From Streptomyces sp. NBC_00557 (GTDB lineage: Bacteria; Actinomycetota; Actinomycetes; Streptomycetales; Streptomycetaceae): a stretch of DNA of 64,000 nucleotides. Shown here piece by piece: positions 17,946 to 60,395 of this stretch (position 1 is its first letter; each line of letters opens with the position of its first letter). The stretch is taken from NCBI RefSeq assembly GCF_036345995.1, contig NZ_CP107797.1, positions 62,001 through 126,000 on the forward strand, given 5' to 3'. The notes beneath the pieces were generated by a model that searched no databases, was not told the DNA's origin, and was given only the letters and a program-made list of their open reading frames with translations. The position numbers were made by a program, and so were the translations under genes.

Positions 17946-34025
<16,080 letters not shown>

Positions 34026-34075
34026 CTGCACACTCCACCTGATCACTGTTGCCACAGCCAGAAATTGGGAATAAC

Positions 34076-38784: not shown

Positions 38785-38852
38785 CGTCGCACCCCGCTTT
38801 GAGTTGTGGCTCGGTTCGCCGAAATCCGCTTTCGTCGAGAACCTCGTTGGCC

Positions 38853-38897
38853 ACGGTATGGGGGGTGCGTCGGCGGTCAAACCCCTAGCTCCCCCTA
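38853..38897 (-). promoter_or_regulatory. Starter-operon promoter with TAGGGG-N4-TAGGGG
   Basis: CCCCTA at 38882-38887 and 38892-38897 (10-bp period) reads TAGGGG twice on the minus strand. A possible -10 (CATACC or TACCGT, 38860-38853) follows at the same offset as in the PKS promoter at 34.1 kb. The TTG start is about 100 bp downstream, again the same distance. It is probably a binding site for a common activator. Confidence 0.6.
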
Positions 38898-40239: not shown

Positions 40240-40444
40240 GCTGCTTCCTCCGTGAACGGGTGCGGCCCGGAACACCTCCTGCCGATTGTGTCCCAGTACC
40301 GGCGGGGCAACCGTCACGCTGCGCCGGGGACGGCCGGATACGGCTCCTCGGTCCCGGCGGCTCCCCCGCTCCCGGCGCCCCGCCCGTGTTGCGGGAACGG
40401 GACTGCGGGGAGGACGCCCGTGTGAGACCCGTGGAACGCCCGGT

Positions 40445-41203
40445 TCACCGGTCCGGCCGAATTCTGTCTCCGGACTCGCCGCCGTCCTGCCGGGCGGTGC
40501 GGGACGCGGAGGAGCAGACGGGATGCCAGCGGGTGCTGGCCGTCAGGAGATCGGCGGCCCAGCCGTCCAGGCGGCGGCGCCCGAGATCCGCCCGTGCCCC
40601 CCTGGGGTCGCCGAGCACCCCGTTCGGGGTGACCCCGCGCAACCCCACGCGCAGCAGCGCGGGCAGCAGGGCCGGCAGCGGCCGCCTGTCGCCTTCTTCG
40701 GCCCGTTCGCGGCGTACCGTGCCGGGCCGAAGGACCAGCATGGCCGAGGTCTCGGCCCGCCCGGCGTGACTGTCGGCCGGATCCCCTTCCGGTTCCCAGA
40801 AGTACGCCCGGCGTCCCTCCGCGCGCAGCCGCGCCACCGCCCGGCGCACAGGTACGGCATTGCCTCCGTGCGCCGAGACGAACGCGACGGCCGCGAACGC
40901 GTCGGCGGAGCGGCCCAGTTCGGTCAGCAGCAGTTCGGTGGCCTGCCGCCCGATCGACAAGGTGCCGGGGAACCCGGCGTGTTCCCCGCTGGAGCCGTAG
41001 GACACCGGCGGTGCCAGCACCACCCAGGGCCGGGCCGCCGCCAGCCGCTCCGCCAGCGCGAGCGCGATGTCCGTGTCCACCGTGAAGGGCAGGTGCGGCC
41101 CGTGCTGCTCGGTGGACCCCACCGGCACGACCAGGACGCTCCGGTCCGCCGTGGCGGCGATCTCCGGCCACGTCGCCTCCGCCAGCCTGCGCGGCTTCGG
41201 CAT
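40445..41203 (-). CDS. mftE: Mycofactocin precursor peptidase MftE (creatininase family)
   Basis: 252 aa, ATG 41203 with GGAAGG upstream. Creatininase-fold metallopeptidase: VPVGSTEQHGPHLPF supplies Glu and His metal ligands, with VDTDIAL, GSSGEHAGFPGT and FVSAHGGNA following. In mycofactocin biosynthesis MftE cuts the MftC-modified MftA and frees the Val-Tyr-derived piece (AHDP). It follows mftF after a 228-nt gap in which I see no gene. The C-terminal 40 residues are polar and Arg-rich and probably disordered. Confidence 0.9.
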   Translation of the reverse strand: MPKPRRLAEATWPEIAATADRSVLVVPVGSTEQHGPHLPFTVDTDIALALAERLAAARPWVVLAPPVSYGSSGEHAGFPGTLSIGRQATELLLTELGRSADAFAAVAFVSAHGGNAVPVRRAVARLRAEGRRAYFWEPEGDPADSHAGRAETSAMLVLRPGTVRRERAEEGDRRPLPALLPALLRVGLRGVTPNGVLGDPRGARADLGRRRLDGWAADLLTASTRWHPVCSSASRTARQDGGESGDRIRPDR

Positions 41204-41431
41204 CCGCCCCCCACCTTCCGTTTGCGAAGTCCGTATGTCGTTGTGTCGCGCGGGGCTTGGCACGGCCTGCACGTCGTCCTGTTCGCGTGGGCCTGGCATC
41301 GGCCTGCCCCCTCCGCGGGTCCGGCTCCGGCGTTCCGTTTGACGCCGTGCCGGCATGGCCCGTGCCCGGCCCCGTCGCCAGCCGCGTGACCCGTGCGAGG
41401 TGCCGGGCCGCGGGCATCCGGCCCACCCGGA

Positions 41432-42838
41432 TCAGGCCCGTCGCACCCCGTCCCGCCCCGGCCACTCCTGTGCGTCCGGAAGCAGTGGGGCCAGGGTGCG
41501 GTGCCGCAGGGCGCCCCACCAGACACCGGCGCCGTAGGCGAGGTCGTCGGCGATACGGGCCGGGAGCCACTGGTGCAGCGGCAGCGCGGGGCGCCCTGCG
41601 CGCCAGTCGGCCACATGGCGGCCCCAGGCGGCGGCCAGCAGCAGCCGCCCGTGCCGGGAGGCGGCCAGGGCCGGCACCGCCACCGGCCACCACGAGCGGG
41701 TGACCGCGTCCGCGAACATCCGGCCCGCACCCCAGTGGCCGCGCAGCGCCAGCGCCACCGACTCCTCGGCCGGTACGCCCACCCCGCGCAGTCTGCGCGG
41801 CAGCAGCGACGCGGTGATCAAGGCCGTGGCGGAGGCGGCGGCCGGCCGGCCCGCGGCCACGGCGCCCCAGCACGCCAGCGTCCAGGGCGACACCCGCACC
41901 GGCGCCGCCGCGGCACCGTGCCGCAGCGCGAGCGGCGCGGCCGACGTCCCGTAGTCGAAGCGCTGCCGCGCCCACGCCGACCACCGGGACCGCGGCGCGT
42001 GCCACACCTGGGCGGCCGGCTCGTAGCGCACGAGCTGCCCCTGGCCGGCCAGCCGCCACACCAGGTCGACGTCCTCGCCGAAGCGCAGGGTCTCGTCGAA
42101 CCCGCCGAGCGCGCGCAGCGCCGCGACCCGGACGACGAGGGCGGCGGTCGGCACGTAACTCACCCGGCTGCCGGGCCGCACGAGGGACGGCAGCGGCCCG
42201 AGGTCGATGGGGGAGCGGTCCTGCTCGTACCGGTCCAGCGCGCTGTCACCCGGCCGGCTGCGCACGCGCGGTGCCACCGCGGCCACCCGCGGATCGGCGA
42301 AGTGCGGCAACAGGGCCGCCAGCCAGCCCGGTTCGGGCACCACGTCCGCATCCAGGAAGGCGACCAGCTCCGTGTCCGCCAGCCGCCAGCCGCTGTTGCG
42401 CGCGGCGGCCGGACCGCGCGCGGCCGGATGCCGCACGGTGGCGCCGGGCAGCGGCACCGCGCTGCCGTCGTCCACCACCACGGTGGCGGCGAGTTCCGTC
42501 AGCCGTGCCAGTGTCGCCGTCACCCCGGGCCGGTCGCGGACCGGGATCACGGCGGTGACGTCGGCCTCGGTGAACGGGCCCGCGGTGTAACGGGGATGGA
42601 CCAGTCCGGCGGACACCAGCTGCTGAGCCAGCCGCCGGAGTCCGGGCGCACCGGACACCGCCTGACCGTCGAGCCAGCCGTCGACCAGCCGGGCGCCGGC
42701 CGCGCTCAGCCGCAGTACCCGGTAGGGCGAACCGCCGAGCAGCGTACGGCCGCCGTCCAGCCGGCTGAGGGAGACATCCGGGTCCAGACGCAGCAGGGCC
42801 GTCTCCGGCGTCGTCGCAGCCGCGCTCGGTGTGCTCAT
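41432..42838 (-). CDS. mftF: Mycofactocin glycosyltransferase MftF
   Basis: 468 aa, ATG overlaps the SDR stop (ATGA). A GT2 family catalytic domain occupies roughly residues 85-320: VTAVIPVRDRPG, TVVVDDGS, NSGWRLADTELVAFLDADVVPEPGW (DxD-type Asp pair) and FGEDVDLVWRL. An N-terminal PqqD-like segment (LLRLDPDVSLSRLDGGRTLLGG, about residues 14-80) precedes it, and hydrophobic segments follow. MftF attaches beta-1,4-linked glucose units to premycofactocin. Position and architecture match mycofactocin loci. Confidence 0.9.
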   Translation of the reverse strand: MSTPSAAATTPETALLRLDPDVSLSRLDGGRTLLGGSPYRVLRLSAAGARLVDGWLDGQAVSGAPGLRRLAQQLVSAGLVHPRYTAGPFTEADVTAVIPVRDRPGVTATLARLTELAATVVVDDGSAVPLPGATVRHPAARGPAAARNSGWRLADTELVAFLDADVVPEPGWLAALLPHFADPRVAAVAPRVRSRPGDSALDRYEQDRSPIDLGPLPSLVRPGSRVSYVPTAALVVRVAALRALGGFDETLRFGEDVDLVWRLAGQGQLVRYEPAAQVWHAPRSRWSAWARQRFDYGTSAAPLALRHGAAAAPVRVSPWTLACWGAVAAGRPAAASATALITASLLPRRLRGVGVPAEESVALALRGHWGAGRMFADAVTRSWWPVAVPALAASRHGRLLLAAAWGRHVADWRAGRPALPLHQWLPARIADDLAYGAGVWWGALRHRTLAPLLPDAQEWPGRDGVRRA

Positions 42839-43641
42839 GGCAGGAAACCTCCGTCGGCGTGGACGACCGTGCCCGTGATGGCGGACGCCTGCGCGCCGCA
42901 CAGCCAGCAGACCGCCGCCGCGACCTCCGCCGGCTCCAGCAGCCGCTGAAGCAGCTGGTGCCCGGCGAACTCGGCGGTGTCCGGCAGCCCGTACAGGTCG
43001 GCGCTGGCCTGGAGCATGGGGGTGCGGGTGGAGCCGGGGGAGACGGCGGTGGCGGTCACGCCGGTGCCGCGCAGGTCGGCGGCCAGACCCCGGATCAGGC
43101 CCACCACCGCGTGCTTGGCCGCGTTGTACCCGGCCAGATGCCACAGCCCGTGGTGGGCGGCCGCCGAGGCGAGCGCCACGAACCGGCCCGAGCGCGGCCC
43201 GGGCGCGGCCAGCAGCCGGGGTACGGCGGCGCGGGCCAGGTTGGCCACCCCGCGCACCCCGATGTCGAACAGGGCGTCCCACTCGGCGTCGGTGGTCTCC
43301 CACAGCGGCCGGCCCCCGGCCATCACCGCCGCCGCGGCCACGGCCGCGTGCAGCTGCCCGGAGTGCCGGTACGCCAGCTCGACCGCCGCGTCGAGGGCCG
43401 CCTGGTCGCGTACGTCGGCGACCACCGGCAGCACCGCGTCCGGCCACCGGTCCGCCAGCGCCGACAACTCCGTCTCGGTGCCCAGCCGATAGCCGACGCC
43501 GGGCAGGTCGCGGCACACGTCCACGGCCACGACCAGCCAGCCGTCCGCGGCCAGCCGTTCCACCACGGCCGCGCCGATCCCGCGGGCGGCGCCGGTCACG
43601 ACGGCCGTGCGCCGCCCGGCGGACCCGGGTGTGCCCTCCAT
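42835..43641 (-). CDS. Mycofactocin-coupled short-chain dehydrogenase
   Basis: 268 aa; ATG with GGGAGG 7 nt upstream. Classical SDR: VTGAARGIGAAVV for NAD binding, Ser in LASAAAH, and YNAAK catalytic pair. After the second strand (VAVDVC) there is an extra stretch of about 25 residues (RDLPGVGYRLGTETELSAL). Insertions here are a mark of SDRs that hold NAD(H) tightly and use mycofactocin as the external electron carrier. It sits between the ETF beta gene and mftF. The substrate (an alcohol or carbonyl) is unknown. A macrolactam or its precursor is possible, as is a general alcohol. Confidence 0.88.
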   Translation of the reverse strand: MEGTPGSAGRRTAVVTGAARGIGAAVVERLAADGWLVVAVDVCRDLPGVGYRLGTETELSALADRWPDAVLPVVADVRDQAALDAAVELAYRHSGQLHAAVAAAAVMAGGRPLWETTDAEWDALFDIGVRGVANLARAAVPRLLAAPGPRSGRFVALASAAAHHGLWHLAGYNAAKHAVVGLIRGLAADLRGTGVTATAVSPGSTRTPMLQASADLYGLPDTAEFAGHQLLQRLLEPAEVAAAVCWLCGAQASAITGTVVHADGGFLP

Positions 43642-43663
43642 CGCGGTCCTCCCTTCGTGGGCT

Positions 43664-44533
43664 TCAGGCCTCTCGCACCGGGGCGTGCACGCCGTGCTCC
43701 CGCAGCTCGGCGAGCAGCAGCTCGGCGGCCTCCTCGGGAGAGCCTGGGATCACCACGCGGGGCGGGGTCCGGGGCGGGGCCAGGGCACCGGTGAGCGCCA
43801 GGAGCCGTTGCCGGGTGCCGCCCTCGGGGGCGGACAGCGCCCTGGGACGGGGACGGTAGGGGCGAGGCCGGCCCGCCCGCACCGCGGCGCCCTCCCGCGC
43901 GCCCGCCCGCACCACGGCGATCTCCGCCCGGCGTGCGGCGAGGGCCGTGGCGAGGGGCGCGCGACGCGGCCGTACGGTCCCGGGCTCCACCGAGCACACC
44001 GCCGGCAGCGGAACCCGCAACTCCTCGGCGCGGCCCCCGTCCAGGCGGCGCACCGCGCGCAGCGACGCCCCGGCGGCACCCTGCTCACCGACCGTCAGCT
44101 CCGTGAGCCCCAATGCCTGAGCGGCACCCGACAGGTGGGCCAGCAGTGCCGGGGTGGCGCCGGTGCCGCGGTCCAGTGAGCGGTCCCCGCACACCACCAC
44201 CTGCGGCAGCGGGCCCCGCGCGGTGAGCCCGGCCAGCAGGCTGTGCGCGGTCGCCGCCTCGTCGCCGTCCGGGCCGTCGACGCGCAGCGCCTCGTCGGCA
44301 CCGGCGGCCAGGGCCTCCCGCAGCATCTCCTCGGCGCCCACGGGTCCCACGGTCACGGCCAGGCAGCGGCCGCCGAGCCGCTCGGCGAGCCGCAGCGCGT
44401 GTTCCAGCGCACACCGGTCGGCGGGGGAGGCCCCGGCCGCGTACGGGGCGCTCGGCGCGGTGCCGGTCAGTGGATGCGCGAAGGCGCGCGAATCCGTCCA
44501 GCGCAGGGCCGCGGCCACCAGCACGTCGCTCAC
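43664..44533 (-). CDS. Electron transfer flavoprotein beta subunit, mycofactocin-associated
   Basis: 289 aa; GTG 44533 overlaps the ferredoxin stop (GTGA). The sequence keeps the ETF-beta plan: AALRWTDS at the start, an ALEHALRLAERLGGRCLAVTVGP segment, DEALRV, VVCGDRSLDRGTGATPALLA and the PLPAVCSVEPGT motif. The C-terminal half is more divergent and Arg/Pro-rich. It pairs with the alpha subunit encoded three genes upstream to carry electrons from flavin dehydrogenases to the FixC/FixX-like acceptor. This gene set recurs beside mycofactocin genes. Confidence 0.85.
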   Translation of the reverse strand: MSDVLVAAALRWTDSRAFAHPLTGTAPSAPYAAGASPADRCALEHALRLAERLGGRCLAVTVGPVGAEEMLREALAAGADEALRVDGPDGDEAATAHSLLAGLTARGPLPQVVVCGDRSLDRGTGATPALLAHLSGAAQALGLTELTVGEQGAAGASLRAVRRLDGGRAEELRVPLPAVCSVEPGTVRPRRAPLATALAARRAEIAVVRAGAREGAAVRAGRPRPYRPRPRALSAPEGGTRQRLLALTGALAPPRTPPRVVIPGSPEEAAELLLAELREHGVHAPVREA

Positions 44534-44841
44534 CCCTGCCGGAAGGCGACCCCGTGGCCGCCCTCGGGATAGGACCAGGTGAGCGCGCCGGGCGCGTCGC
44601 ACACCTGGTAGCAGGTGCCGCACTCGAAGCACTGCTCGTAGTTGAAGAGGATGCCGCCGTCGTCCGTCGGCACGAACAGCGCGGCGGGGCAGGCGTGCAC
44701 ACAGGCGCGGACCTCGCAGGAGCGGCACACGTCGGTGTCCACCGTGATGTGCGCCCGCTCGGCGACACGGAAGTCCACCGTGGCCATGCGGTCCTCGAAG
44801 GACACTGCGGGCCGCTGGCCTTGGGGGCTGGTCTGGGTCAT
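44530..44841 (-). CDS. FixX-like ferredoxin
   Basis: 103 aa; ATG overlaps the FixC-like stop (ATGA). Two iron-sulphur motifs are visible: CRSCEVRACVHACPAAL and CFECGTCYQVCD. Family members bind one or two 4Fe-4S clusters and pass electrons between the FixC-type flavoprotein and the membrane quinone pool. The small size, position and motifs match FixX of ETF:quinone oxidoreductase systems. Confidence 0.9.
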   Translation of the reverse strand: MTQTSPQGQRPAVSFEDRMATVDFRVAERAHITVDTDVCRSCEVRACVHACPAALFVPTDDGGILFNYEQCFECGTCYQVCDAPGALTWSYPEGGHGVAFRQG

Positions 44842-46169
44842 CGGAAGGACCTCGCTGAGGTGAACGCGTCGGACAGCAGATGCCGCAGGCGCACACCGCG
44901 CCGGCGGGCCGCGTCCGACACCAGCCGGCGCAGACCCGGTTTGGGGCGCGGGTTGTCCACGGTGAAGAACCCCTGGGCCACGTCGCACAGCAGCCCCGGG
45001 TACGACCGCTGCACCCGGTCGGAGAAGACCAGTCCCGGCACCCGGCGCAGCCTGCGGTGGTCGGCCAGCACGAAGGACTCCTCCAGCAGACGGCGGTAAC
45101 CGGCCAGCCCGGTACGGGAGGTGTCGCCCGCCGCGATCGCCTCGGCGGCGGCCCGGCCGGCGTACATGCCCGCGCCGAGCGCGTAGTTGACGCCCTCCAG
45201 CCAGACACCCGCGGCCAGGCACATGGCCCCCGCGTCCCCGGCCACGAGCATGCCGTCGGTGACGAGTTCGGGCATGGTGTCGTAGCCGCCCTCCGGGATC
45301 AGGTGCGCGGAGTACTCCTTCAGCTCGGCGCCGCGCAGCAGCGGGGCGATCGCCGGGTGCTCCTTCAGCCCGGCCAGCACCGCCTCCGGCCGTACGCCGG
45401 ACGCGGTGAGCCCGGTGAGCGACAGCACCACGCCGACGCTGACCGACTCCAGGTTCGTGTAGAGGAAGCCACCGCCGGGGATGCCGCCGGTGCCGCCGAG
45501 GATCTCGATGTCCTGGCCGTGCCGCCCGCTCAGCCCGAACCGTTCCTCGACGACCTCGCGCGGCAGGGCGAGGGTCTCCTTCACGCCCAGCGAGGTGTGC
45601 TCGGCCTGCTTGCCGGACACCTTCGCGAAAAGCCCCGCCTCCTTGGCGAGGAAGGAGTTGACGCCGTCGCAGGCGATGACGACCCGGCCGGTCAGGTCGC
45701 CGCCCGGCCGGTCGGTGCGCACTCCGGTGACCTTCCCCGCGGTGTCGCGCAGCAGCCCGGTGGCCGTGGTGGACGGCACCAGCACGGCGCCCGCCTCCTC
45801 GGCGAGCCGGGCGAGCCAGCCGTCCAGCTCGGCACGGAAGGCGGTGGCCCCGTTGTACGGGGGGCGGCCCCAGTCCTCGGCGCGGAAGTCGACGGTGAGC
45901 GCCTGGCTGCCGGTGAGCAGCATGGTGGAGCGCCGGGTGACCCAGCGCTGCACCGGCATGTGCTCCCACCAGCCCGGCACCAGCTCGTCCAGGATCCGGC
46001 CGTAGACCACGCCGCCGTACACGTTCTTGGCGCCCGGGTAGGGACCGCGCTCCAGCAGCGCCACCGACAGCCCGGCGCGCGCCGCCTCCAGCGCGGCCGC
46101 CGACCCGGCGGGGCCCGCGCCGACCACGACGACGTCGAAGGCGGGCGCCGGATTCGTCTCAGGCGGCAT
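44838..46169 (-). CDS. FixC-like ETF:quinone oxidoreductase flavoprotein
   Basis: 443 aa, ATG 46169, 11-nt overlap with the alpha subunit gene. FAD-binding N-terminus VVVVGAGPAGSAAALEAAR, an Arg/Glu loop (LLERGPYPGAK), and a second FAD contact, LVAGDAGAMCLAAGVWLEGVNYALGAG region. It belongs to the geranylgeranyl reductase/FixC family. With ETF and the ferredoxin encoded next to it, it should deliver electrons from mycofactocin-linked dehydrogenation to the respiratory chain at the membrane. No transmembrane helix is evident, so it would be peripheral. Confidence 0.9.
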   Translation of the reverse strand: MPPETNPAPAFDVVVVGAGPAGSAAALEAARAGLSVALLERGPYPGAKNVYGGVVYGRILDELVPGWWEHMPVQRWVTRRSTMLLTGSQALTVDFRAEDWGRPPYNGATAFRAELDGWLARLAEEAGAVLVPSTTATGLLRDTAGKVTGVRTDRPGGDLTGRVVIACDGVNSFLAKEAGLFAKVSGKQAEHTSLGVKETLALPREVVEERFGLSGRHGQDIEILGGTGGIPGGGFLYTNLESVSVGVVLSLTGLTASGVRPEAVLAGLKEHPAIAPLLRGAELKEYSAHLIPEGGYDTMPELVTDGMLVAGDAGAMCLAAGVWLEGVNYALGAGMYAGRAAAEAIAAGDTSRTGLAGYRRLLEESFVLADHRRLRRVPGLVFSDRVQRSYPGLLCDVAQGFFTVDNPRPKPGLRRLVSDAARRRGVRLRHLLSDAFTSARSFR

Positions 46170-47088
46170 CGCCCACCTCCCTCAGCCTGCGGGTCAGCGC
46201 GGCGAGCACGGCGGGCGCGTCGGCCACGATGCCCAGGTCGGCCATGGCGGTCATCGGGCAGTACGGGTCGGTGTTCACGCTCACCACATGGCGCGGCGCG
46301 CCGAGCCCGCCGGTGTGGTGCGGGGCGCCGGAGACACCGAACGCGACGTACAGGTCGGGGTCGACGGTGACGCCGGTGGTGCCGATCTGCCGGGCGTACT
46401 CCAGCCAGCCCGCGTCGGTGACCACGCGGGTGCCGCCCACCGCCATGTCCAGGGCGGCACCGGCCTCGGCGAGCAGCGCCACGGCCTCGGGACCGCCCAG
46501 CCCGCCGCCCGCACCGAGCACCCGGCGGGCGGCGGCCAGATCACCGGCGTCGGCCGAGGTGTCGAGGTCGGCCACGTGCACCGCGTCGGGGACGGCGGGC
46601 GCGGGGGCGGACAGGGTGAGTTCGCCGGTCTCCACAGGGCCCGGCACGGGCACCGCGCCGCGCACCCCGGGCTCCAGGGTGGCCACGAAGGGGCCGTCCA
46701 CGGTCAGTTCGACCAGTGCGCTGCCGCCCAGGCGCAGCACGTCGGCGCCGTGCGGAAGCACCTCGAGGGCGCTGGCGAGGAGCGGCCGCCCCAGCTCGGC
46801 GGCGAGGCGCGGCGCGAGGTCCCGGCCGTCCGGGGAGGCAGGCAGGATCACGATGCGCACGGCGGCGAGCAGCGGCGCGAGTGCGACGGACAGGGCGGCG
46901 GGCGAGGTCCCGCTGTCGGCCGTCCACACCCGCCGGGCCGCGACCAGCTCCCGGGCCCCGGCGGCGGCCCGCGAACCGGCCACCAGCGCGTGTCCGTCCG
47001 CCTCGGCCACGGCCTCGTCCGCGCCCAGCGGAAGCACCCCGTCCCGTACGACGAGCACGGCGACCCGCTCGGGCAGGCGGGCGCTCAC
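46159..47088 (-). CDS. Electron transfer flavoprotein alpha subunit, mycofactocin-associated
   Basis: 309 aa, GTG overlapping the FadH/OYE stop (GTGA). The C-terminal 120 residues are the FAD-binding part of ETF-alpha: LGAGGGLGGPEAVALL, GGTRVVTDAGW, QIGTTGVTVDPDLYVAFGVSG, HHTGGLG and VNTDPYCPMTAMADLGIV. The N-terminal half is a divergent Rossmann domain. It acts as a heterodimer with the beta subunit encoded three genes downstream. Confidence 0.9.
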   Translation of the reverse strand: MSARLPERVAVLVVRDGVLPLGADEAVAEADGHALVAGSRAAAGARELVAARRVWTADSGTSPAALSVALAPLLAAVRIVILPASPDGRDLAPRLAAELGRPLLASALEVLPHGADVLRLGGSALVELTVDGPFVATLEPGVRGAVPVPGPVETGELTLSAPAPAVPDAVHVADLDTSADAGDLAAARRVLGAGGGLGGPEAVALLAEAGAALDMAVGGTRVVTDAGWLEYARQIGTTGVTVDPDLYVAFGVSGAPHHTGGLGAPRHVVSVNTDPYCPMTAMADLGIVADAPAVLAALTRRLREVGDAA

Positions 47089-49052
47089 AGGGCCGCCCCC
47101 ACCCGGTGCCCCTCGACGACCGCGGCGTGTGCGCGGCGCGGGGTCAGGCAGTCACCGGCCCGGTGGACCGGGAACGGCGCGTCCGTCAGCGCGTGCCACA
47201 GGGCGTCCTCCGGCGCCTGGTGCACGGCGCACACCACCCAGTCGTAGCGTTCCCGCGCCGTGGTGTTCGTGGTGTGCGTGAGGATGTCCAGCTCCACTTC
47301 CCCGTCCCCCTGCCCGCCCGGCCGGGCTCCCGTCACCACCTGGTCGGTGGCGTGTGCGATGCCCTTGGCGTGGGCGCGCACGCCGTACGTCTCCAGGTCG
47401 AGCGTGACGCCCAGGTCCTGCCCCACGACCATCCCGGGCGTGCTGATCCGCACCCTGCAACCCCGGTCGGCCAGCAGCTCGGCCGTGGAGGTGGCCTGGT
47501 GGAAGCCGAGTTCGTCGACGACCAGGACCCGCTGTCCGGCCTGCGGCGCCGCCCGGCCCTCCAGCACGTCCCGCACATCCACGATCCGCTCCAGGCCGCC
47601 CGCCCAGTAGGGGGGTTGGGGCCGCGCACCGGTGGCGAGGACGACCGCGTCCGGCGCCTCGGCGCGCAGTGATTCGGCCGTGGCCTCCACCCCCGTGCGG
47701 ATGTCCACGCCATGGCGCAGGCACTCGGCGAGCAGGTTGCGCACCACGTCCAGGAACTCCGCCCGGCTCGGCGCGGTCGCCGCCGTGGCGACCTGGCCGC
47801 CGGTGGCCGGCGCCCGCTCGTACAGCGTCACCCGGTGCCCGCGCTGCGCGGCGGTCGCCGCCGCCTGCAGCCCGGCCGGGCCGCCGCCGACCACCAGCAC
47901 CCGGCGCGGCCTCGGGCCCGGCGCGGGCAGCGGCACCGCCTCGCGGCCCGCCCGGGGGTTCTCGATGCAGCCCAGCCAGCGGTTCAGGCCCATGCGGCCC
48001 ACGCACTCCTGGTTGCAGGACAGACAGGTGCGGATGTGCGGGGTGTGCCCGGCGCGGGCCTTGGCGGCGAAGTCCGGGTCGGCGATCTGGCCGCGCACCA
48101 CGCCGACCAGGTCGCAGTGGCCCTCGGCGAGGGCCCGTTCGGCCTGCACCGGGTCCTTGATCCGGCCCACGCCGATCACCGGCAGTCGCACGGCCGAGCG
48201 GATGGCGTTGGAGACGAACAGGGCGTAGCCGGGCGGCACCGACATCGACGCCTCGATCATGTACAGGGTCGAGGTGGCCACGCCGATCGAGGTGTTGATG
48301 TAGTCGACCTTGCCGGTGGCCTCCACCAGCCGGGCCGTGGCGACGGCCTCCTCGATGGTGGTGCCGCCGTCCAGCAGCTCGTCGCCGCACAGCCGCACCC
48401 CCAGCACCCGGTCGGGCCCGATGGCCTCGCGCACCGCGTCGACGATCTCCGTCAGGATCCGCACCCGGTGCTCCAGCGGGCCGCCGTAGGCGTCGGTGCG
48501 CAGGTTGGTGGCGGGGGAGAGGAAGCCGCGCACGATCGAGGAGTGCGAGCACTGCAGTTCGACGCCGTCGAAGCCGCCCTCCGCGCAGTGCCCGGCGACC
48601 GTGCCGTACCCGGCGACGATCTCGGCGATCTCCGCGGTGGTGACCTCCTTGGGCACCTCCCGGAACAGCGGGTCGGGCACCGGCGACGGTGCCCACACCG
48701 GCAGCCGCGAGTACATCGAGGACGCCTGGCCGCCGTTGTGGTTCAGCTGGGCGAGGATCGGGGTGCCGTGCGCGTGGACGGCCTCGGTGATGCGCCGGTA
48801 CCCGGCCACCGCCTCCGGCCGGAAGCCGTGGATGAGCTTCTCGTACGGCCAGTCGGTGGCGTGGGTGGAGTGCTCCTCGGTGATGATCAGCCCGGCCCCG
48901 CCGGCCGCCCGCGCCGCGTAGTACGCCGCGTGCTGCTCACTGGGCAGGCCGTCCTCGGCGTAGTTCGTCAGATGCGCGGAGAACACGATCCGGTTGGCGA
49001 GCGTCAGAGGGCCCAGCCGGAGCGGGGAGAACAGCAGCTTCACGGCGCTCAC
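47085..49052 (-). CDS. Mycofactocin system FadH/OYE-type oxidoreductase 1
   Basis: 655 aa from GTG 49052, chosen for GGAGGT 8 nt upstream and the GTGA overlap with the preceding gene. Three parts as in 2,4-dienoyl-CoA reductase: an OYE-like TIM barrel with FMN (about 1-350; LGPLTLANRIVFSAH, ILAQLNHNGGQ), a 4Fe-4S cluster motif (CLSCNQECVGRMGLNRWLGC), and an NAD(P)/FAD part (VLVVGGGPAGLQAA, about 390-655). It is probably a flavin reductase acting on enones, dienes or a mycofactocin intermediate. Two such paralogues are typical of some mycofactocin loci. Confidence 0.88.
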   Translation of the reverse strand: MSAVKLLFSPLRLGPLTLANRIVFSAHLTNYAEDGLPSEQHAAYYAARAAGGAGLIITEEHSTHATDWPYEKLIHGFRPEAVAGYRRITEAVHAHGTPILAQLNHNGGQASSMYSRLPVWAPSPVPDPLFREVPKEVTTAEIAEIVAGYGTVAGHCAEGGFDGVELQCSHSSIVRGFLSPATNLRTDAYGGPLEHRVRILTEIVDAVREAIGPDRVLGVRLCGDELLDGGTTIEEAVATARLVEATGKVDYINTSIGVATSTLYMIEASMSVPPGYALFVSNAIRSAVRLPVIGVGRIKDPVQAERALAEGHCDLVGVVRGQIADPDFAAKARAGHTPHIRTCLSCNQECVGRMGLNRWLGCIENPRAGREAVPLPAPGPRPRRVLVVGGGPAGLQAAATAAQRGHRVTLYERAPATGGQVATAATAPSRAEFLDVVRNLLAECLRHGVDIRTGVEATAESLRAEAPDAVVLATGARPQPPYWAGGLERIVDVRDVLEGRAAPQAGQRVLVVDELGFHQATSTAELLADRGCRVRISTPGMVVGQDLGVTLDLETYGVRAHAKGIAHATDQVVTGARPGGQGDGEVELDILTHTTNTTARERYDWVVCAVHQAPEDALWHALTDAPFPVHRAGDCLTPRRAHAAVVEGHRVGAAL

Positions 49053-51040
49053 CGCGACGCACCTCCTTCGCCGCCGTGCAGCGCCAGCGCCGCGCGGCGG
49101 CCCTCCAGCAGGGCCTCGTGCACCGTGCGCGGTGCCACCCGGTCGCCCGCCGGCACGGCGCCGGCCGGGGCGGTGAGCGAGGTGTCGGGCAGCCGGTGGC
49201 CGCAGTGCACCACGGCCGCGCACGCCACCTTGTGCTGCTCGCCGGTGACGGAGTCCTCCACCAGCGCGGCGTCCGCGAGCACCGCCCGCAGCACGGCCCG
49301 CCGCAGCAGGCTCACCCCGGCGCGTGCCAGCCGCGCGTGCGCGTCGGCGAGGTCACCGGTCAGGGCGAGCTGTGTCCCGGCCACCTGGTCCGGGGTGACC
49401 AGCGCGGTCTCACGGCCCTCGGCGGCCAGCCGGTCGGCGAGGGCGACGCCGGTCGCGTCGCCCACGGGATCGTGGACGAGCACCGGTCCGTCGGGCAGCG
49501 CCGCACGGCCCGCGAGGAGGTCGGCCGCCTCCAGCACGGTGCCGCCGTCGACGTCGTAGCGGCGCGGACCGGGACGCGAGCCGGTGGCCAGCACCACCCG
49601 GCGCCCGGTCAGGTCCCGTGCCGCCGCCTCGGTGCCGGTCCGCACGACGACGCCGAGCCGCCGTACCTCCGACTCCAGCCAGTCCAGCAGCGGCGCCCAG
49701 CGCCCGCCCGCCACCCGCAGCATCCCGCCGAGCCGCTCGGTGCGCTCCACCAGTTCCACGGGGTGCCCGTGGGCGGCCAGCACCCGCGCGGCCTCCAGGC
49801 CGGCGGGGCCGCCGCCGACCACGAGGACGGCATGGCCGGACGCCCCGGGAGGCGCACCGTCGGGCCTCCCGGGGGCGTCCGTCTCCCGCGCCGCGGCGGC
49901 CACGGACCCCGGCTCCCGCCTCAGGGGGGTGTCCGGCGGGTCCTCGGTCTCATGGCCGCTGCGGGGGTCCACGGCGCACGAGACCACCGGGTTGCGGTTG
50001 TCCCGTACGCGGCACTTCTGGTTGCACAGCACACACGGCCGCACCCGCTCGGGGCGTCCCGCGCGCACCAGCGCGACCAGCTGCGGATCGGCGATCTGGG
50101 CGCGGGTCATCTCCACCAGGTCGGCGATCCCGTCGTCCAGCGCGCGCTGGGCCAGGTCCGGGCCGGTGACCGAACCCTGCAGCACCACGGGGACCGCCCC
50201 GGCGACCGTCGAGCGCACGCCGGCGCACAGCGCGCTGTTGAAACCCGGCGGGGTGTGGAAGTCGGGGCGGGTGGCGGCGGTGGACATCGCCGAACCCCGC
50301 ACCACCACCAGGTAGTCGAGCAGCGGCGCCAGCTCACGGGCGAAGCCCTCGGCGTGCTCGGGCGTGATACCGGCCCACGGTGCCAGCTCGTCGCAGGACA
50401 GCCGCAGCCCCACCAGCCGTCCTGCGCCCACCGCCTCGCGCACGGCCCCGAGCACCTGGCGGACCAGCAGCAGCCGGTCGGTGCCGTAGGCGTCCTGGCG
50501 CTGGTTGGTCAGGCCGGACAGGAACTGGCGCAGCAGGCTGTACTGGCCGGCGTCGACCTCCACCCCGTGCAGCCCCGATTCCACCGCCAGCCGTGCCGCC
50601 GACGCGAACCCGGCGCGCAGCCCGTCCAGTTCGGCCTCCTCCACCTCCATCGGCAGTTCCCGGCTCACCACGTCGGCGACCCGGGACGGCGCCCACAGCG
50701 CCGACTGGTGGTAGGCGGAGGAGCCCTGGGAGCCGGCGTGGCCGAGGGAGGCCACCACCAGCGTTCCGTACGGTGCGCACGCGGCCGCGGTGGCCGCCCA
50801 GCCGGGGCCGCAGTCCGCGGCCAGCGGGGCCCGCTCGTACGGCCAGTCGGAGACGTGCACGCTCGCCGTCTCGGTGACGACGACACCTGCACCGCCGGCC
50901 GCGCGCCGCGCGTAGTAGGCGGCGTGCCGGTCCGACAACGCCCGGCGGCGGGCCAGATTGGTCTCGTGCGGCCCGAACACCACCCGGCTCGGGGCGGTGT
51001 ACGGGCCCAGGGTGACGGGCTCGGTCAGACGCATGGTCAC
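49049..51040 (-). CDS. Mycofactocin system FadH/OYE-type oxidoreductase 2
   Basis: 663 aa, ATG overlaps the mftC stop (ATGA). Same plan as its neighbour: TIM barrel (LGPYTAPSRVVFGPHETN, VASLGHAGSQ), cysteine motif (CVLCNQKCRVRDNRNPVVSC) and a C-terminal FAD/NAD(P) domain (LVVGGGPAGLEAARVL). The linker around residues 360-395 is a long polar insertion. Against paralogue 1 the active-site regions differ (ECDAG-type stretch, HETN for HLTN), so the substrates may differ. It is transcribed between mftC and paralogue 1. Confidence 0.88.
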   Translation of the reverse strand: MTMRLTEPVTLGPYTAPSRVVFGPHETNLARRRALSDRHAAYYARRAAGGAGVVVTETASVHVSDWPYERAPLAADCGPGWAATAAACAPYGTLVVASLGHAGSQGSSAYHQSALWAPSRVADVVSRELPMEVEEAELDGLRAGFASAARLAVESGLHGVEVDAGQYSLLRQFLSGLTNQRQDAYGTDRLLLVRQVLGAVREAVGAGRLVGLRLSCDELAPWAGITPEHAEGFARELAPLLDYLVVVRGSAMSTAATRPDFHTPPGFNSALCAGVRSTVAGAVPVVLQGSVTGPDLAQRALDDGIADLVEMTRAQIADPQLVALVRAGRPERVRPCVLCNQKCRVRDNRNPVVSCAVDPRSGHETEDPPDTPLRREPGSVAAAARETDAPGRPDGAPPGASGHAVLVVGGGPAGLEAARVLAAHGHPVELVERTERLGGMLRVAGGRWAPLLDWLESEVRRLGVVVRTGTEAAARDLTGRRVVLATGSRPGPRRYDVDGGTVLEAADLLAGRAALPDGPVLVHDPVGDATGVALADRLAAEGRETALVTPDQVAGTQLALTGDLADAHARLARAGVSLLRRAVLRAVLADAALVEDSVTGEQHKVACAAVVHCGHRLPDTSLTAPAGAVPAGDRVAPRTVHEALLEGRRAALALHGGEGGASR

Positions 51041-52251
51041 GCGGCCCCCGGGCTCCCGGGCGCGAACCCGGCCAGCGGGCTGGTGTCACAGGCCCGGTCC
51101 GGCACCCCGGCGGCGGCCGGGCGGCGCCCGATGGTCACCGGGACCGGGCCGGACCGCGGACGGGAGCGGTGCGAGTGGTCGCCGCTCGGGCGCGGTGCCG
51201 TCCCCGCGCCGACCACGGCCAGCGCCCGCTCCCCGTTGCCCTTCACGCACTCCGGGTCCGGGCCGTCCAGCGGCAGCCCGGTGAAGAACTTCGCGGCCAT
51301 GCAGCCGCCGCGGCAGGCGTCGTACGCCGGGCAGGCCGTGCACGCGCCGCCGGTCTGCGGGGAGCGCAGCTCGGCGAACAGCTCCGACTCGCGCCACACG
51401 GCGGAAAAGCCGCCCGGGGAGCGGACGTTGCCGGCGAGGAAGGTGTCGTGGATGGCGAACGGGCAGGCGTACACGTCGCCGACGGGGTCGATCAGGCAGA
51501 CCACCCGGCCCGCCCCGCACAGGTTCAGACCCGGCAGCGGCTGTGCGCCGAGGGCGTTGAGGTGGAAGAAGGAGTCGCCGGTGAGCACGTCCTCCCCGTG
51601 CGCCAGCAGCCACTCGTACAGCGCGCGCTGCTGGCCGGCCGTCGGGTGCAGCTCGTCCCACACGTCGGCGCCGCGCCCGGAGGGCCGCAGCCGGGTGATG
51701 CGCAGCTGGGCGCCGTGGGCGTCGGCGATGGCCTTGAAGTCGTCGAGCTGGCCGGCGTTGTGCCGGGTCACCACCACGCTCAGCTTGAAGTCGCGCATGC
51801 CGGCGTCGGCGAGGTGGCGCATCGCGGCCATCGCGGTGTCGTACGAACCCGGCCCGCGCACCGCGTCGTTGACCTCGGCCGTCGCCCCGTCCAGGGAGAT
51901 CTGCACGTCGACGTAGTCGCTGGCGGCAAGCCGGCGGGCCCGCTCGGGCGTGATGCGCACGCCGTTGGTGGAGAACTTCACCCCGACGTGGTGGTCGGTG
52001 GCGTACTCGACCAGCTCCCAGAAGTCGGGGCGCACGGTCGGCTCGCCGCCGCCGATGTTGACGTAGAAGACCTGCATGCGCTCCAGCTCGTCGATCACGG
52101 CCTTGCACTCGGCCGTGGTCAGCTCCCCGGGGTCGCGCCGGCCCGAGGAGGACAGGCAGTGCACACACGCCAGGTTGCAGGCGTAGGTCAGCTCCCAGGT
52201 CAGGCAGATGGGGGCGTCCAGGCCGCTCTCGAAGTGGTCGACGAGCTTCAT
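51037..52251 (-). CDS. mftC: Mycofactocin maturase MftC (radical SAM/SPASM)
   Basis: 404 aa; ATG 52251 overlaps the mftB stop (ATGA). Radical SAM cluster motif C-x3-C-x2-C in TYACNLACVHC (Cys25, 29, 32), then YVNIGGGEPTVRP for SAM binding. The C-terminal SPASM region has CGAGRVVCLIDPVGDVYACPF-type and CTACPAYDACRGGC cysteines for extra Fe-S clusters. MftC oxidatively decarboxylates the C-terminal Tyr of MftA and then joins Val and Tyr into a lactam. A 60-residue polar tail follows the SPASM part. Confidence 0.95.
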   Translation of the reverse strand: MKLVDHFESGLDAPICLTWELTYACNLACVHCLSSSGRRDPGELTTAECKAVIDELERMQVFYVNIGGGEPTVRPDFWELVEYATDHHVGVKFSTNGVRITPERARRLAASDYVDVQISLDGATAEVNDAVRGPGSYDTAMAAMRHLADAGMRDFKLSVVVTRHNAGQLDDFKAIADAHGAQLRITRLRPSGRGADVWDELHPTAGQQRALYEWLLAHGEDVLTGDSFFHLNALGAQPLPGLNLCGAGRVVCLIDPVGDVYACPFAIHDTFLAGNVRSPGGFSAVWRESELFAELRSPQTGGACTACPAYDACRGGCMAAKFFTGLPLDGPDPECVKGNGERALAVVGAGTAPRPSGDHSHRSRPRSGPVPVTIGRRPAAAGVPDRACDTSPLAGFAPGSPGAA

Positions 52252-52550
52252 GCTGCTTCCTCCAGCAGGTCGCAGGCCGGCTCCTCGGGCCGGGGCTCGA
52301 TCACGCCGCCCGCGGCGAGGGAGGCGAGAGCGCCGAGGTGGGCGGCGCGTTCGGCGGCGGGCACCCCGGCCGCGTCGAGCGCCGTGTGGACGTCCGGGTG
52401 GCCGGCCAGCGACCGTACGACCGCCACCAGCCGGGGTGTCTTCAGGAAGCACAGCCGGCGGGTGCCGAAGTGGTAGGCGAGCGCCCCGAAGGGCTCGGGG
52501 CGCAGCGCCACGCTCGGTGAGCACCGGTAGGGGCGCTCGGGGGTGAACAC
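52248..52550 (-). CDS. mftB: Mycofactocin precursor-binding chaperone MftB
   Basis: 100 aa; GTG 52550 with GGAGG 8 nt upstream. PqqD-like RiPP recognition element: SVALRPEPFGALAYHFGTRRLCFLKTPRLVAVV is the typical strand-strand-helix core, followed by helices to the C-terminus. MftB binds MftA and presents it to MftC. The start lies 15 nt after the mftA stop. Confidence 0.93.
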   Translation of the reverse strand: MFTPERPYRCSPSVALRPEPFGALAYHFGTRRLCFLKTPRLVAVVRSLAGHPDVHTALDAAGVPAAERAAHLGALASLAAGGVIEPRPEEPACDLLEEAA

Positions 52551-52565
52551 GGGGGCGGCCTCCGG

Positions 52566-52685
52566 TCAGTAGACGCCGCACATGCCGTCGATGGAGACCT
52601 CTTCGACGAGCAGTTCCTCGGCGTACTCGGCGTCCGCCGCGATCCCGGGTGCCTCCTCGGTCCGGGGCGTCTCCTCGGCGTCCAT
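52566..52685 (-). CDS. mftA: Mycofactocin precursor peptide MftA
   Basis: 39 aa; ATG 52685 with GAAGGAGGG upstream. A longer in-frame start would remove this ribosome site and was rejected. The C-terminus reads SIDGMCGVY: the IDGMCGVY tail with Val-Tyr at the very end is the hallmark of MftA, and these two residues become the cofactor core. The leader is acidic (DAEYAEELLVEEV), as expected for binding to MftB. First gene of the mycofactocin operon. Confidence 0.96.
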   Translation of the reverse strand: MDAEETPRTEEAPGIAADAEYAEELLVEEVSIDGMCGVY

Positions 52686-52750
52686 GGCGGTCCCTCCTTC
52701 GAACGATGCCGTGCGCATCCGTCCTGGAAGATGCTCTCGGACACCGACGA

Positions 52751-52783
52751 AAAGGACCACCCCTAACAAATTAGGGGTGGTCC
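52751..52783 (-). terminator. Perfect 13-bp hairpin with T-run; possible operator too
   Basis: GGACCACCCCTAA (52754-52766) and TTAGGGGTGGTCC (52771-52783) pair perfectly around CAAA. On the minus strand TTTTCG follows, so it should end transcription of the TetR gene (stop 52816). It also lies 69-98 bp upstream of mftA and contains the TAGGGG box seen at both PKS-side promoters, so it could serve as a binding site as well. Confidence 0.75.
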
Positions 52784-52815
52784 GGTGAGCCCATCGCGGA
52801 GGGTTCTGCCTTTTC

Positions 52816-53412
52816 TCAGTCGGAAAGTTCCCTGTCCCGCGTTCCCGTCATGATCGCGAGCAGCGCATAGGAAAGGTCCGGGCCGGTGGGAGCGGATTCC
52901 GGGTCGATCAGCCACTGGGCCATGACTCCGGTGAGCAGCGCCTGGAAAAAGGAGCCGACCGCGCGCACGGTCCGCTCGTCGCTCTCTTCCTCCAGCTGCG
53001 CCAGGAGAGCCTCGCCCATGCCGACCCGGGCCTCCTGGAGACCATCGGCGAGCGCCTCCCGGATTTCGGGGGAATGCTCGATCTGGGTGAGTGCCTCGAA
53101 ATTGACGGACCAGAGCCGGCGGTGTCCGGAGAACAGCTCGATCACCTTGGTCCAGACCGCCTCGAACTGCTCGCGCGGGGATGCCGGTGACTCGTCGTCG
53201 TAGGCCATGGACTTTTCCAGCGCCTCGCCCCATTCGGCGTTGGCGCGGATCAGGGCCTCGTTGAGAAGTGCTTCCTTCGAGCCGTAGTGGTAGCCGATGG
53301 AGGCGAGGTTCGCGCCTGACGCGGCGACGATGTCACGGGCTGTCGTGCGGGCATAGCCTTTCTCGGTCAGGCACTGCTTCGCACCTTCGAGTAGAGCGTC
53401 GCGATGTCCCAT
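52816..53412 (-). CDS. TetR-family regulator, probable MftR
   Basis: 198 aa, ATG 53412. The N-terminal TetR helix-turn-helix is clear (TTARDIVAASGANLASIGYHYGSKEALL region, residues 22-50); the ligand domain is helical. It stands directly upstream of mftA, where MftR lies in mycofactocin loci; MftR repressors respond to acyl-CoAs in mycobacteria. A near-perfect inverted repeat 24 bp upstream of the ATG fits autoregulation. It could also control the adjacent PKS and amidase genes. Assignment as MftR rests mainly on position. Confidence 0.75.
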   Translation of the reverse strand: MGHRDALLEGAKQCLTEKGYARTTARDIVAASGANLASIGYHYGSKEALLNEALIRANAEWGEALEKSMAYDDESPASPREQFEAVWTKVIELFSGHRRLWSVNFEALTQIEHSPEIREALADGLQEARVGMGEALLAQLEEESDERTVRAVGSFFQALLTGVMAQWLIDPESAPTGPDLSYALLAIMTGTRDRELSD

Positions 53413-53481: not shown

Positions 53482-54384
53482 TCAGCGGGGCAGGCCCCTC
53501 AGGTACTCGATCATCGTCGCGATGAACCGCTCCGGTTCCTCCAGGTGCGGCAGGTGACTCGACTCCTCGAAGATCTCCCACCGCGCGTCCGGGATCAGTT
53601 CCGCGTACGGCCGCACCGTCTCCGGGGTCGCCTCGTCGTACCGGCCGGACAGGACCAGCGTGGGCACCTCGATGTCCGGCAGACAGTCCTCCACCCCCCA
53701 GTCCCTGAGCGTGCCGATCACATGGAACTCGCTGGGCCCGTTCATCGTCCGGTACACGGTCGGATCGTTGGTGATCTCGTAGAACGACGCCTGGTAGTCG
53801 CGCGGCCAGGGCTTGAGACGGCACACGTGCTTCTCGTAGAAGACGCGCATCGCCTCGTGGTACTCCTCGCTGTCCGTCGTCCCCGCGGCCTCGTGACGCA
53901 GCAGGACCTCGTTGACACCGGGGGGCAGCTGGGCCCGCAGCACGGCCATCTCCCGCAGCCACAGCGGATACGAGGCGGGGGCGTTGGCGATCACCAGTCC
54001 CCGCAGCCCCGCCGGCCGTGCGGCGGCGTGCCGGGCGACGAGCAGCCCGCCCCAGGACTGCCCGAACAGCACGTAGTTGTCGGCGACGCCGAGCCGGTGC
54101 AGCAGGTTGTCCAGCTCGTCCAGGAACAGCTGCGGGGTCCAGAAGTCCTCGCCCTTGTCCGGCAGGTGGGTGGAGCCGCCGTTGCCCAGCTGGTCGTAGA
54201 GCACCACCGGCCAGCCCACTGCCGCGAAGACCTCCATCCCGCGCAGGTAGTCGTGAGTGCTGCCCGGCCCCCCGTGCACCACCACGAGCGCGGGCAGCGG
54301 CGAACCGGGATCCCCGCTGATGCGGTACCAGGTCTTGAAGTCGCCGAAGGGAACGGTTCCCTTGACAATGGAAGCCACAGACAT
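53482..54384 (-). CDS. Prolyl-aminopeptidase-like amidase (VinJ-like)
   Basis: 300 aa; ATG 54384 with GAGG 8 nt upstream, 13 nt after the PKS stop. Alpha/beta hydrolase of peptidase family S33: oxyanion motif VVVHGGPGST, nucleophile GQSWGG, acid in SGRYDEATPETV, and His in EESSHLPHLEEPERF. In vicenistatin-type pathways VinJ removes the N-terminal alanyl group that protects the beta-amino starter, on the finished polyketide chain, so that the amine can cyclise. Being the next gene after the terminal PKS-TE fits that timing exactly. Confidence 0.88.
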   Translation of the reverse strand: MSVASIVKGTVPFGDFKTWYRISGDPGSPLPALVVVHGGPGSTHDYLRGMEVFAAVGWPVVLYDQLGNGGSTHLPDKGEDFWTPQLFLDELDNLLHRLGVADNYVLFGQSWGGLLVARHAAARPAGLRGLVIANAPASYPLWLREMAVLRAQLPPGVNEVLLRHEAAGTTDSEEYHEAMRVFYEKHVCRLKPWPRDYQASFYEITNDPTVYRTMNGPSEFHVIGTLRDWGVEDCLPDIEVPTLVLSGRYDEATPETVRPYAELIPDARWEIFEESSHLPHLEEPERFIATMIEYLRGLPR

Positions 54385-54397
54385 GTCGGACACCTCG

Positions 54398-60385
<5,988 letters not shown>

Positions 60386-60395
60386 CGCTGCTGTC

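Follow-up and report, generated by a model that had tools for sequence, protein, structure and literature searches.

A mycofactocin operon without mftD in macrolactam gene clusters of Streptomycetaceae

The 342,739-base contig C2 of Streptomyces sp. NBC_00557 (genome G000), which is probably a giant plasmid beside an 8.68-Mb chromosome (contig C1), carries a mycofactocin (mft) operon within a polyketide synthase (PKS) gene cluster. Here we report an analysis of a 64,000-nucleotide stretch of this contig (C2:62001-126000, the window) and of related operons in other plasmids and genomes. Because five related yet distinct macrolactam clusters carry the operon too, it is very likely a built-in part of the biosynthesis of a macrolactam group rather than an accident. 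On the basis of gene content, repeated co-location, the absence of mftR, the co-occurrence of a second short-chain dehydrogenase (SDR) and an anti-correlation between MftD and operons of the electron-transfer flavoprotein (ETF) type, we conclude that the operon is probably a functional part of a subfamily of β-amino-acid macrolactam clusters, in which the cluster brings its own mycofactocin for tailoring by an SDR of the TIGR03971 family.

Genes were called by profile scans against NCBIfam curated cut-offs (Table 1). In minus-strand order the genes are those for a TetR-family regulator, mftA, mftB, mftC, OYE1, OYE2, etfA, fixC, fixX, etfB, an SDR (the operon SDR), mftF and mftE. These scans recovered every gene that the initial annotation had named (mftA, mftB, mftC, mftE, mftF, the OYE, ETF and Fix genes and the SDR), with FixC and FixX falling below the curated cut-offs; mftA, whose product ends in IDGMCGVY, mftB and mftC all exceed theirs. 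The interval 40445..53412 first assigned to the operon holds up to mftA, whereas its end at 53412 belongs to the TetR gene (52816-53412). The mftA start is the ATG at 52685, preceded by AGGAGG. A listed open reading frame at 51086-52168 was rejected as mftC, as it is in the wrong frame and has zero family matches.

The scans found neither mftD nor mftR in the window operon. The operon thus encodes MftA with a C-terminal VY core, MftB, MftC, MftE and MftF, without MftD. As TIGR03966 occurs in most mft species but not in every one, according to the part of Haft 2011 available to us (PMC3023750), such an operon is still admissible to the wider mft system. The chromosome of NBC_00557 has a separate canonical locus with mftB, mftC, mftD (714 versus 471 bits), mftE, an SDR and mftF, which makes the plasmid operon an additional mft system of a different kind. 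The chromosomal locus lies near a gene for a MadB-like ATPase (below cut-off), and L049, L061, L085 and L087 are similarly laid out; the frame L003:12156-13358 likewise has zero family matches.

Recurrence of the operon in macrolactam clusters

The product of the window cluster is predicted from gene content to be a macrolactam, and the cluster is of the 3-amino-2-methylpropionate (3-Amp) type: glutamate mutase, a decarboxylase, VinN-, VinK-, VinM- and VinJ-like proteins and a modular type I PKS with a thioesterase (TE) are all encoded. The operon is truly embedded in this cluster, between the β-amino-acid starter genes and the TE-bearing PKS module. We searched for relatives with the operon as a query against plasmids, which returned seven records (SAT1, S. 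yangpuensis CM253, S. lavendulae CP077967, NBC_00334, NBC_00564, NBC_00080 and Tsukamurella), and with MftC against genomes, in which the best 80 of 585 loci were analysed. Together with the genus searches below, these yielded six distinct mft-bearing macrolactam clusters, in the window, SAT1, S. yangpuensis CM253, NBC_00334, Kitasatospora sp. Root107 (G394) and G531; the unannotated S. lavendulae CP077967 gave match values equal to those of S. yangpuensis, and the two were counted once.

The SAT1 cluster is the same as that of the window, and S. yangpuensis CM253 has another glutamate-mutase macrolactam cluster. NBC_00334 encodes an aminotransferase, VinJ-, VinK- and VinM-like proteins and a protein annotated as lysine 2,3-aminomutase, which we read as a putative glutamate 2,3-aminomutase of the 3-aminobutyrate type; a first impression of a macrolide cluster was discarded, as its starter gene set is that of a macrolactam of this other type. 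The clusters of Root107 and of G531, a second species of the same genus with a similar cluster, are also of the 2,3-aminomutase type. Among the other plasmid records, the operon of NBC_00564 is surrounded by genes with catabolic annotations, that of NBC_00080 is canonical, and the Tsukamurella record has an mftC match only. OYE1 is present in 12 of the 80 MftC loci, with a ketosynthase in the fetched stretch only in Root107; mft-associated EtfA exceeds its cut-off in 2 of 70 genomes of the Root107 genus (Root107 and G531); and OYE1 (TIGR03996) does so in 2 of 392 genomes of the window's genus (NBC_00557 and G266), where scores below the cut-off are uninformative because all 392 genomes have OYE homologues. 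G266 almost exactly resembles NBC_00564, and the 55 kb fetched from it gave zero ketosynthase matches. Altogether, 6 of the 7 distinct loci of this operon type found in Streptomycetaceae are macrolactam clusters, the remaining one being catabolic.

Conserved co-location, which the initial annotation had proposed as a check, therefore holds in six distinct clusters of two starter types. A role of the cofactor in making the starter or another precursor, one of the options first considered, is disfavoured because clusters with different starters have the operon in common. The other option, that a mobile mft cassette was inserted by chance into a PKS cluster, would accord with the odd site between starter genes and a PKS module in the window and SAT1 and with the plasmid location of several clusters, but it is hard to square with 6 of 7 loci in macrolactam clusters, in differing arrangements and in one case on an 8.2-Mb contig, or with the agreement of the mft, SDR and core trees described below; we consider it very improbable.

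A tree of MftC, OYE1, FixC and EtfA groups the window, SAT1, S. yangpuensis and NBC_00334 with full support. The trees of the macrolactam core (proline iminopeptidase (PIP), VinK and VinM), the mft proteins, the TIGR03971 SDR and the flavin monooxygenase FMO2 agree in separating the window and SAT1, S. yangpuensis, and NBC_00334 with Root107 and G531, with some branches supported at 58-85 only. NBC_00564 and G266, as a pair, sit among the macrolactam branches in the unrooted trees of the mft proteins and the SDR. These trees are only suggestive of an old co-inheritance of mft, SDR and core genes, with losses.

Related clusters without the operon also exist. A VinJ-like protein of at least 73% identity occurs in seven Streptomycetaceae plasmid records (next best record, 56%), of which four also have MftC (SAT1, S. 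yangpuensis, S. lavendulae and NBC_00334). At E ≤ 1e-60, MftC is found in 11 of 72,556 records and is absent from the other three, NBC_01266, NBC_01343 and NBC_01006, whose starter genes are 72-85% identical to those of the window. The initial annotation had held that close relatives with the same PKS and product but no mft genes would speak against a function for the operon; none was found, and these three plasmids carry other clusters and have no close relative of the TIGR03971 SDR either. NBC_01266 lies nearer to the window cluster in the concatenated core tree than does the mft-bearing S. yangpuensis, so the presence of mft genes does not simply track cluster relatedness; PIP alone opposes this placement (74% identity to the window for NBC_01266 versus 78% for S. 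yangpuensis). NBC_01343 (L127/L161), NBC_01006 (L128/L163) and S. yangpuensis (L092, ~29-38 kb) have a neighbouring block in common, which encodes a condensation-domain protein, an aromatase/cyclase, an acyl-CoA dehydrogenase, an acyltransferase, a PPTase and a PqqD-family protein; PqqD-family and SARP genes also occur in SAT1, NBC_00334 and NBC_01266.

Candidate tailoring enzymes and the missing regulator

The initial annotation took the operon SDR for the dehydrogenase of the pathway. This enzyme lies inside the operon, passes mycofactocin-coupled SDR models and is present in the window, SAT1, NBC_00334, Root107 and G531 clusters. However, relatives at 71-77% identity occur in six of the 11 ketosynthase-free OYE1 loci on genome contigs (L011, L012, L015, L017, L022 and L031), and the enzyme is missing from the macrolactam cluster of S. 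yangpuensis. The operon SDR thus seems to belong to the operon and not to the macrolactam genes, and we think it quite unlikely to be the tailoring dehydrogenase.

A second mycofactocin-coupled SDR, of the TIGR03971 family, is encoded next to VinK, 28 kb outside the window. All six mft-bearing macrolactam clusters have this enzyme, at 64-90% identity to that of the window strain (90% in SAT1, 68% in S. yangpuensis, 64-65% in NBC_00334, and 68% in Root107 and G531). Searched whole, the three mft-less plasmids had no close relative: one gave zero matches and two gave distant ones only (E 1e-11 and 1e-12, 30%). Judged by these comparisons, the TIGR03971 SDR, not the operon SDR, is the likeliest candidate for the mycofactocin-dependent tailoring enzyme. 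FMO2 likewise occurs in all six clusters, at 49-88% identity to that of SAT1, and in a plasmid search the four mft-bearing macrolactam records were the top four of 126, followed by matches at 48-49% among the 15 listed. We nevertheless downgraded FMO2 as a strict marker of these clusters, as similar enzymes are common; in the mft-less plasmids it was checked within the fetched stretches only.

The six operons also share the lack of a regulator. An MftR-like gene, defined by at least 39% identity to NBC_00080 MftR, is present in all 13 non-macrolactam OYE1 loci, NBC_00564 and G266 included, and absent from all six macrolactam operons, the sole weak match in G531 being 58 kb off. On genome contigs, 11 of the 12 OYE1 loci have such a gene, and Root107 is the exception. 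The TetR-family regulator beside the window operon gave zero TIGR03968 matches at E ≤ 0.001 and hence is not MftR by profile. The lack of mftR may reflect capture of the operon by the cluster's own regulation.

These patterns bear on whether the operon instead serves the host or plasmid, in alcohol or lipid catabolism, redox balance or self-protection, and is only carried along with the macrolactam genes. Mycofactocin acts in alcohol metabolism elsewhere, as described in the available part of PMC11778925, and a related operon lies among catabolic-annotated genes in NBC_00564 and its near-identical copy G266. Six distinct co-locations in two macrolactam types, the lack of mftR only there and the constant presence of one SDR alongside make this explanation unlikely.

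An OYE and ETF gene set as a proposed substitute for MftD

Among the 80 MftC loci, 57 have mftD and 12 have OYE1, with none having both, and 11 have neither in the fetched stretch; none of the 21 loci with mftG has OYE1. Neither the stretches fetched for the six macrolactam clusters nor four plasmid records searched whole contain mftD. Fifteen whole genomes were also searched, of which ten have ETF/Fix genes at the mft locus, four have OYE1 without ETF genes and one has a cut contig. MftD above the cut-off is absent from eight of them, all with ETF/Fix genes, and present in seven: NBC_00557, G397, the four ETF-less genomes and the cut-contig genome. In Root107, the sole MftC above the cut-off genome-wide lies in the macrolactam cluster, and there is zero MftD above the cut-off.

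We also scanned 120 genomes sampled evenly from the family to which Amycolatopsis sp. GM8 belongs. MftC exceeds its cut-off in 53 of these, mft-associated EtfA in 20 and MftD in 42, all with MftC. MftD is present in 33 of 33 MftC-positive genomes without EtfA, and in 9 and absent in 11 of the 20 with EtfA (Fisher p 2.2e-6, a value that ignores kinship; the best 14 MftD candidates per genome were scored, and genome completeness is not given). Seven of the nine genomes with both have a single MftC beside etfA and MftD elsewhere (G477, G447, G464, G429, G397, G491 and G422); G449 and G479 have two MftC proteins. This pattern fits replacement, not strict exclusion. Because MftD is missing only among EtfA-positive MftC genomes, it suggests that OYE1/OYE2, EtfAB and FixCX can replace MftD.

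The best solved relatives of OYE1 and OYE2 are NCR, histamine dehydrogenase, FadH, trimethylamine dehydrogenase (TMADH) and the FMN-domain protein 6l6j. Both enzymes resemble TMADH, histamine dehydrogenase and FadH in that they align over the FMN barrel, the [4Fe-4S] cysteines and the nucleotide-binding part. We aligned 20 OYE1 and 17 OYE2 sequences (L014/L142 and L096/L131 being represented twice), dropping the OYE2 of SAT1 and L024 for their broken frames; in SAT1 (L091, NZ_CP016083.1, ~24.7-26.7 kb) no CDS is listed for OYE2, and the extracted frame breaks. At the column that we take to hold the catalytic Tyr of FadH, all 20 OYE1 have Ser or Ala and all 17 OYE2 have Ser; the presumed His column holds Ala or Pro in OYE1 and Ala in OYE2. 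With this pair replaced throughout, a function as 2,4-dienoyl-CoA reductase is not supported. The column assumed to match the TMADH active-site His retains His in 13 of 17 OYE2 and has Gln in the four loci without ETF genes, and all four [4Fe-4S] cysteines are kept in all 17. Unlike in TMADH, OYE2 has Gln in place of the presumed active-site Tyr, and OYE1 has Gln, Val or Pro at the His column; one [4Fe-4S] cysteine is missing from 8 of the 20 OYE1 sequences. The ETF genes adjoin OYE1 and OYE2; in L012, L067, L070 and L076, OYE1 and OYE2 occur without ETF/Fix genes in the fetched stretch, OYE2 has Gln for His, and MftD is encoded in the genomes.

TMADH-like enzymes oxidise amines and pass the electrons to ETF, and MftD deaminates AHDP; for these reasons we propose OYE1/OYE2–EtfAB–FixCX as a substitute for MftD. 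Deamination of AHDP by MftD yields premycofactocin, as given in the available part of PMC11778925. In the scheme that we infer, including each enzymatic step, the cofactor made, the substrate, the position tailored and the route and direction of the electrons, MftA, MftB, MftC and MftE would make the AHDP core, and OYE1/OYE2 instead of MftD would oxidise it to the redox-active form, with electrons passing to EtfAB and then to FixCX. In addition or instead, the same chain may re-oxidise reduced mycofactocin and deliver electrons to the quinone pool, perhaps also replacing MftG. MftF would glycosylate the cofactor. Mycofactocin would then accept electrons from the nicotinoprotein TIGR03971 SDR, which may oxidise a macrolactam hydroxyl after PKS assembly, perhaps following FMO2. 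The joint proposal, that the cofactor operon is bundled so that tailoring works in any host and that the MftD-independent route from an amine-dehydrogenase-like OYE1/OYE2 pair through EtfAB and FixCX to quinone replaces MftD and probably MftG, is tentative, and we regard it as possible rather than probable.

A different view of the missing mftD is that the operon makes a non-canonical product, such as AHDP or its glycoside left unoxidised, and no redox cofactor. The absence of mftD from the fetched stretches of the clusters and from four whole plasmid records would accord with it. However, 11 of the 53 MftC-positive genomes keep the pathway without MftD above the cut-off, and the available part of the BGCFlow article (PMC11162802) reports mftD-less, TIGR03997-bearing clusters in Saccharopolyspora and cites methylated mycofactocin from S. 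erythraea. We therefore judge a non-canonical product to be highly unlikely.

Several observations weigh against the proposed cofactor supply for tailoring. None of the six clusters has a product known to us, and thus the tailored position cannot be specified. In NBC_00557 the plasmid copy is not a strict requirement, because a canonical chromosomal locus with MftD is present. The TIGR03971 SDR is not exclusive to macrolactams, because NBC_00564 and G266, a near-identical pair without a nearby ketosynthase, have relatives at 61-62% identity, and it may belong with the operon type rather than with macrolactams alone. FMO2 is weak evidence, as other Streptomyces plasmids encode FMO2-like enzymes at 42-49%. 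The OYE2 of SAT1 reads as frameshifted. The Gln at the Tyr position of OYE2, and the missing His and the cysteine loss in OYE1, argue against a simple TMADH analogy, and nine of the 20 EtfA-positive genomes also have MftD. In the mft tree, the Root107 branch lies near the group of the other clusters but is unresolved relative to Kutzneria (UFBoot 54). The tree agreement involves four tips after collapse of pairs, such that each tree had a 1-in-3 chance of agreeing, and one core branch has a support of 58.

Cluster organization and comparison with known systems

Table 1 Features of the mft operon, the macrolactam cluster and related loci (window positions unless a contig or locus is given)
Feature	Position	Strand	Evidence
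Type I PKS, several modules	17946..34055	-	KS/AT/DH/KR/ACP motifs
Glutamate (methylaspartate) mutase E subunit, start approximate	34153..35436	-	PF06368, 271.7 bits
Glutamate mutase S subunit, B12-binding, start approximate	35490..35990	-	PF02310
VinO-like PLP decarboxylase	35987..37234	-	80-91% in five other glutamate-mutase clusters
VinN-like adenylation enzyme	37231..38880	-	78-86% in five other glutamate-mutase clusters
FAD-dependent monooxygenase (in glutamate-mutase group)	38992..40317	-	PF01494; 81% SAT1, 63% S. yangpuensis, 43% mft-less NBC_01266
mftE, creatininase-type peptidase	40445..41356	-	TIGR03964, 252 bits vs 172
mftF, glycosyltransferase, start approximate	41432..42796	-	TIGR03965, 451 bits vs 280
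Operon SDR, mycofactocin-coupled	42835..43641	-	TIGR04504, 393 bits vs 250
etfB, mycofactocin-associated ETF beta, start inferred	43664..44518	-	TIGR04503, 341-344 bits vs 200
fixX-like ferredoxin, start inferred	44530..44787	-	FixX model, 51.9 bits, below cut-off 166
fixC-like ETF:quinone oxidoreductase-type flavoprotein	44838..46169	-	FixC-type subfamily models, E 2e-93 and 3e-88, below cut-off
etfA, mycofactocin-associated ETF alpha	46159..47088	-	NF038209, 399 bits vs 240
OYE2, mycofactocin-system FadH/OYE family oxidoreductase 2, start from HMM edge	47085..49043	-	TIGR03997, 988 bits vs 793
OYE1, mycofactocin-system FadH/OYE family oxidoreductase 1	49049..51040	-	TIGR03996, 823.6 bits vs 627.9
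mftC, radical SAM maturase, 404 aa	51037..52251	-	TIGR03962, 652.5 bits vs 265
mftB, peptide chaperone	52248..52550	-	TIGR03967, 106 bits vs 33
mftA, mycofactocin precursor, 39 aa	52566..52685	-	TIGR03969, 50.7 bits vs 25
TetR-family regulator	52816..53412	-	TetR_N; 86% identical copy at equivalent place in SAT1
Proline-iminopeptidase-family hydrolase, VinJ-like	53482..54390	-	TIGR01250; 70-89% across eight other macrolactam clusters compared
Type I PKS module with TE	54398..60508	-	KS, AT, DH, KR, TE motifs
Type I PKS, continues past window edge	60396..63998	-	AT, KR motifs; further ketosynthase matches in L006
FMO2, flavin monooxygenase	C2:135879-137270		
TIGR03971 SDR, adjoins VinK	C2:154072-154917		TIGR03971, 337.7 vs 300 bits
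Canonical chromosomal mft locus	L003:10088-17677 (G000:C1 ~8.302-8.310 Mb)		NDMA-dependent methanol dehydrogenase (TIGR04266) adjoining

Outside the window, the stretches L006 and L009 encode VinK-like and VinM-like starter-loading proteins (L009), a P450, the second flavin monooxygenase and more PKS. The VinJ-like hydrolase presumably removes a protecting amino acid. In SAT1, the VinK, VinM and TIGR03971 SDR genes are located close to the end of another plasmid record, NZ_CP016082.1, as if the assembly had split one molecule. Window positions 2720-13483 hold genes of the non-ribosomal peptide synthetase (NRPS) type, which encode an adenylation protein with a methyltransferase domain, a condensation protein, MbtH, a TauD-like oxygenase, an ATP-grasp protein whose C-terminal domain is of the L-amino-acid-ligase type and a LuxR-type AAA regulator; the corresponding place in SAT1 also holds an NRPS. 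SARP- and LuxR-like genes occur elsewhere on the NBC_00557 plasmid (L005), and the final 20 kb of C2 matches Streptomyces plasmids piecewise only.

If the proposed role is correct, these loci would clearly exemplify a secondary-metabolite cluster equipped with the pathway to a peptide-derived redox cofactor, and mycofactocin would enter antibiotic-type biosynthesis. The clusters would allow mycofactocin-dependent enzymes to be studied by gene deletion in bacteria other than mycobacteria, most of all in Kitasatospora sp. Root107, because its only MftC above the cut-off lies in the macrolactam cluster. They would also give a testable answer to two gaps, namely how mycofactocin is made without MftD and what substitutes for MftG in MftG-less MftC genomes.

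The mycobacterial operon has the layout mftR-A-B-C-D-E-F-G. The window operon resembles it in encoding MftA with IDGMCGVY, MftB, MftC, MftE and MftF, all above curated cut-offs, but differs in its PKS-cluster setting and in having OYE1, OYE2, EtfAB and FixCX instead of MftD, MftG and MftR. The NCBI names already call these ETF proteins mycofactocin-associated (NF038209 and TIGR04503). About 25% of MftC genomes lack MftG, and the available part of PMC11778925 leaves its replacement open. The Saccharopolyspora clusters described in the accessible text of BGCFlow (PMC11162802) are similar in having MftA, MftB, MftC and a TIGR03997 oxidoreductase without mftD; unlike the reading given here, that text proposes neither a mechanism of MftD replacement nor a polyketide link. 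The absence of mftD beside an OYE gene is thus already known for Saccharopolyspora, whereas mycofactocin genes in a macrolactam cluster were the subject of no title or abstract in the open-access literature searched. The sceliphrolactam gene table, in the part covered by the available sources (PMC5785472, PMC10662134), includes two P450s, a ferredoxin and a thioredoxin but no mft genes. In its glutamate mutase, its VinN-, VinO-, VinK-, VinM- and VinJ-like proteins and its modular PKS, the window cluster matches the vicenistatin- and sceliphrolactam-type clusters with a 3-amino-2-methylpropionate starter, as described in those same parts.

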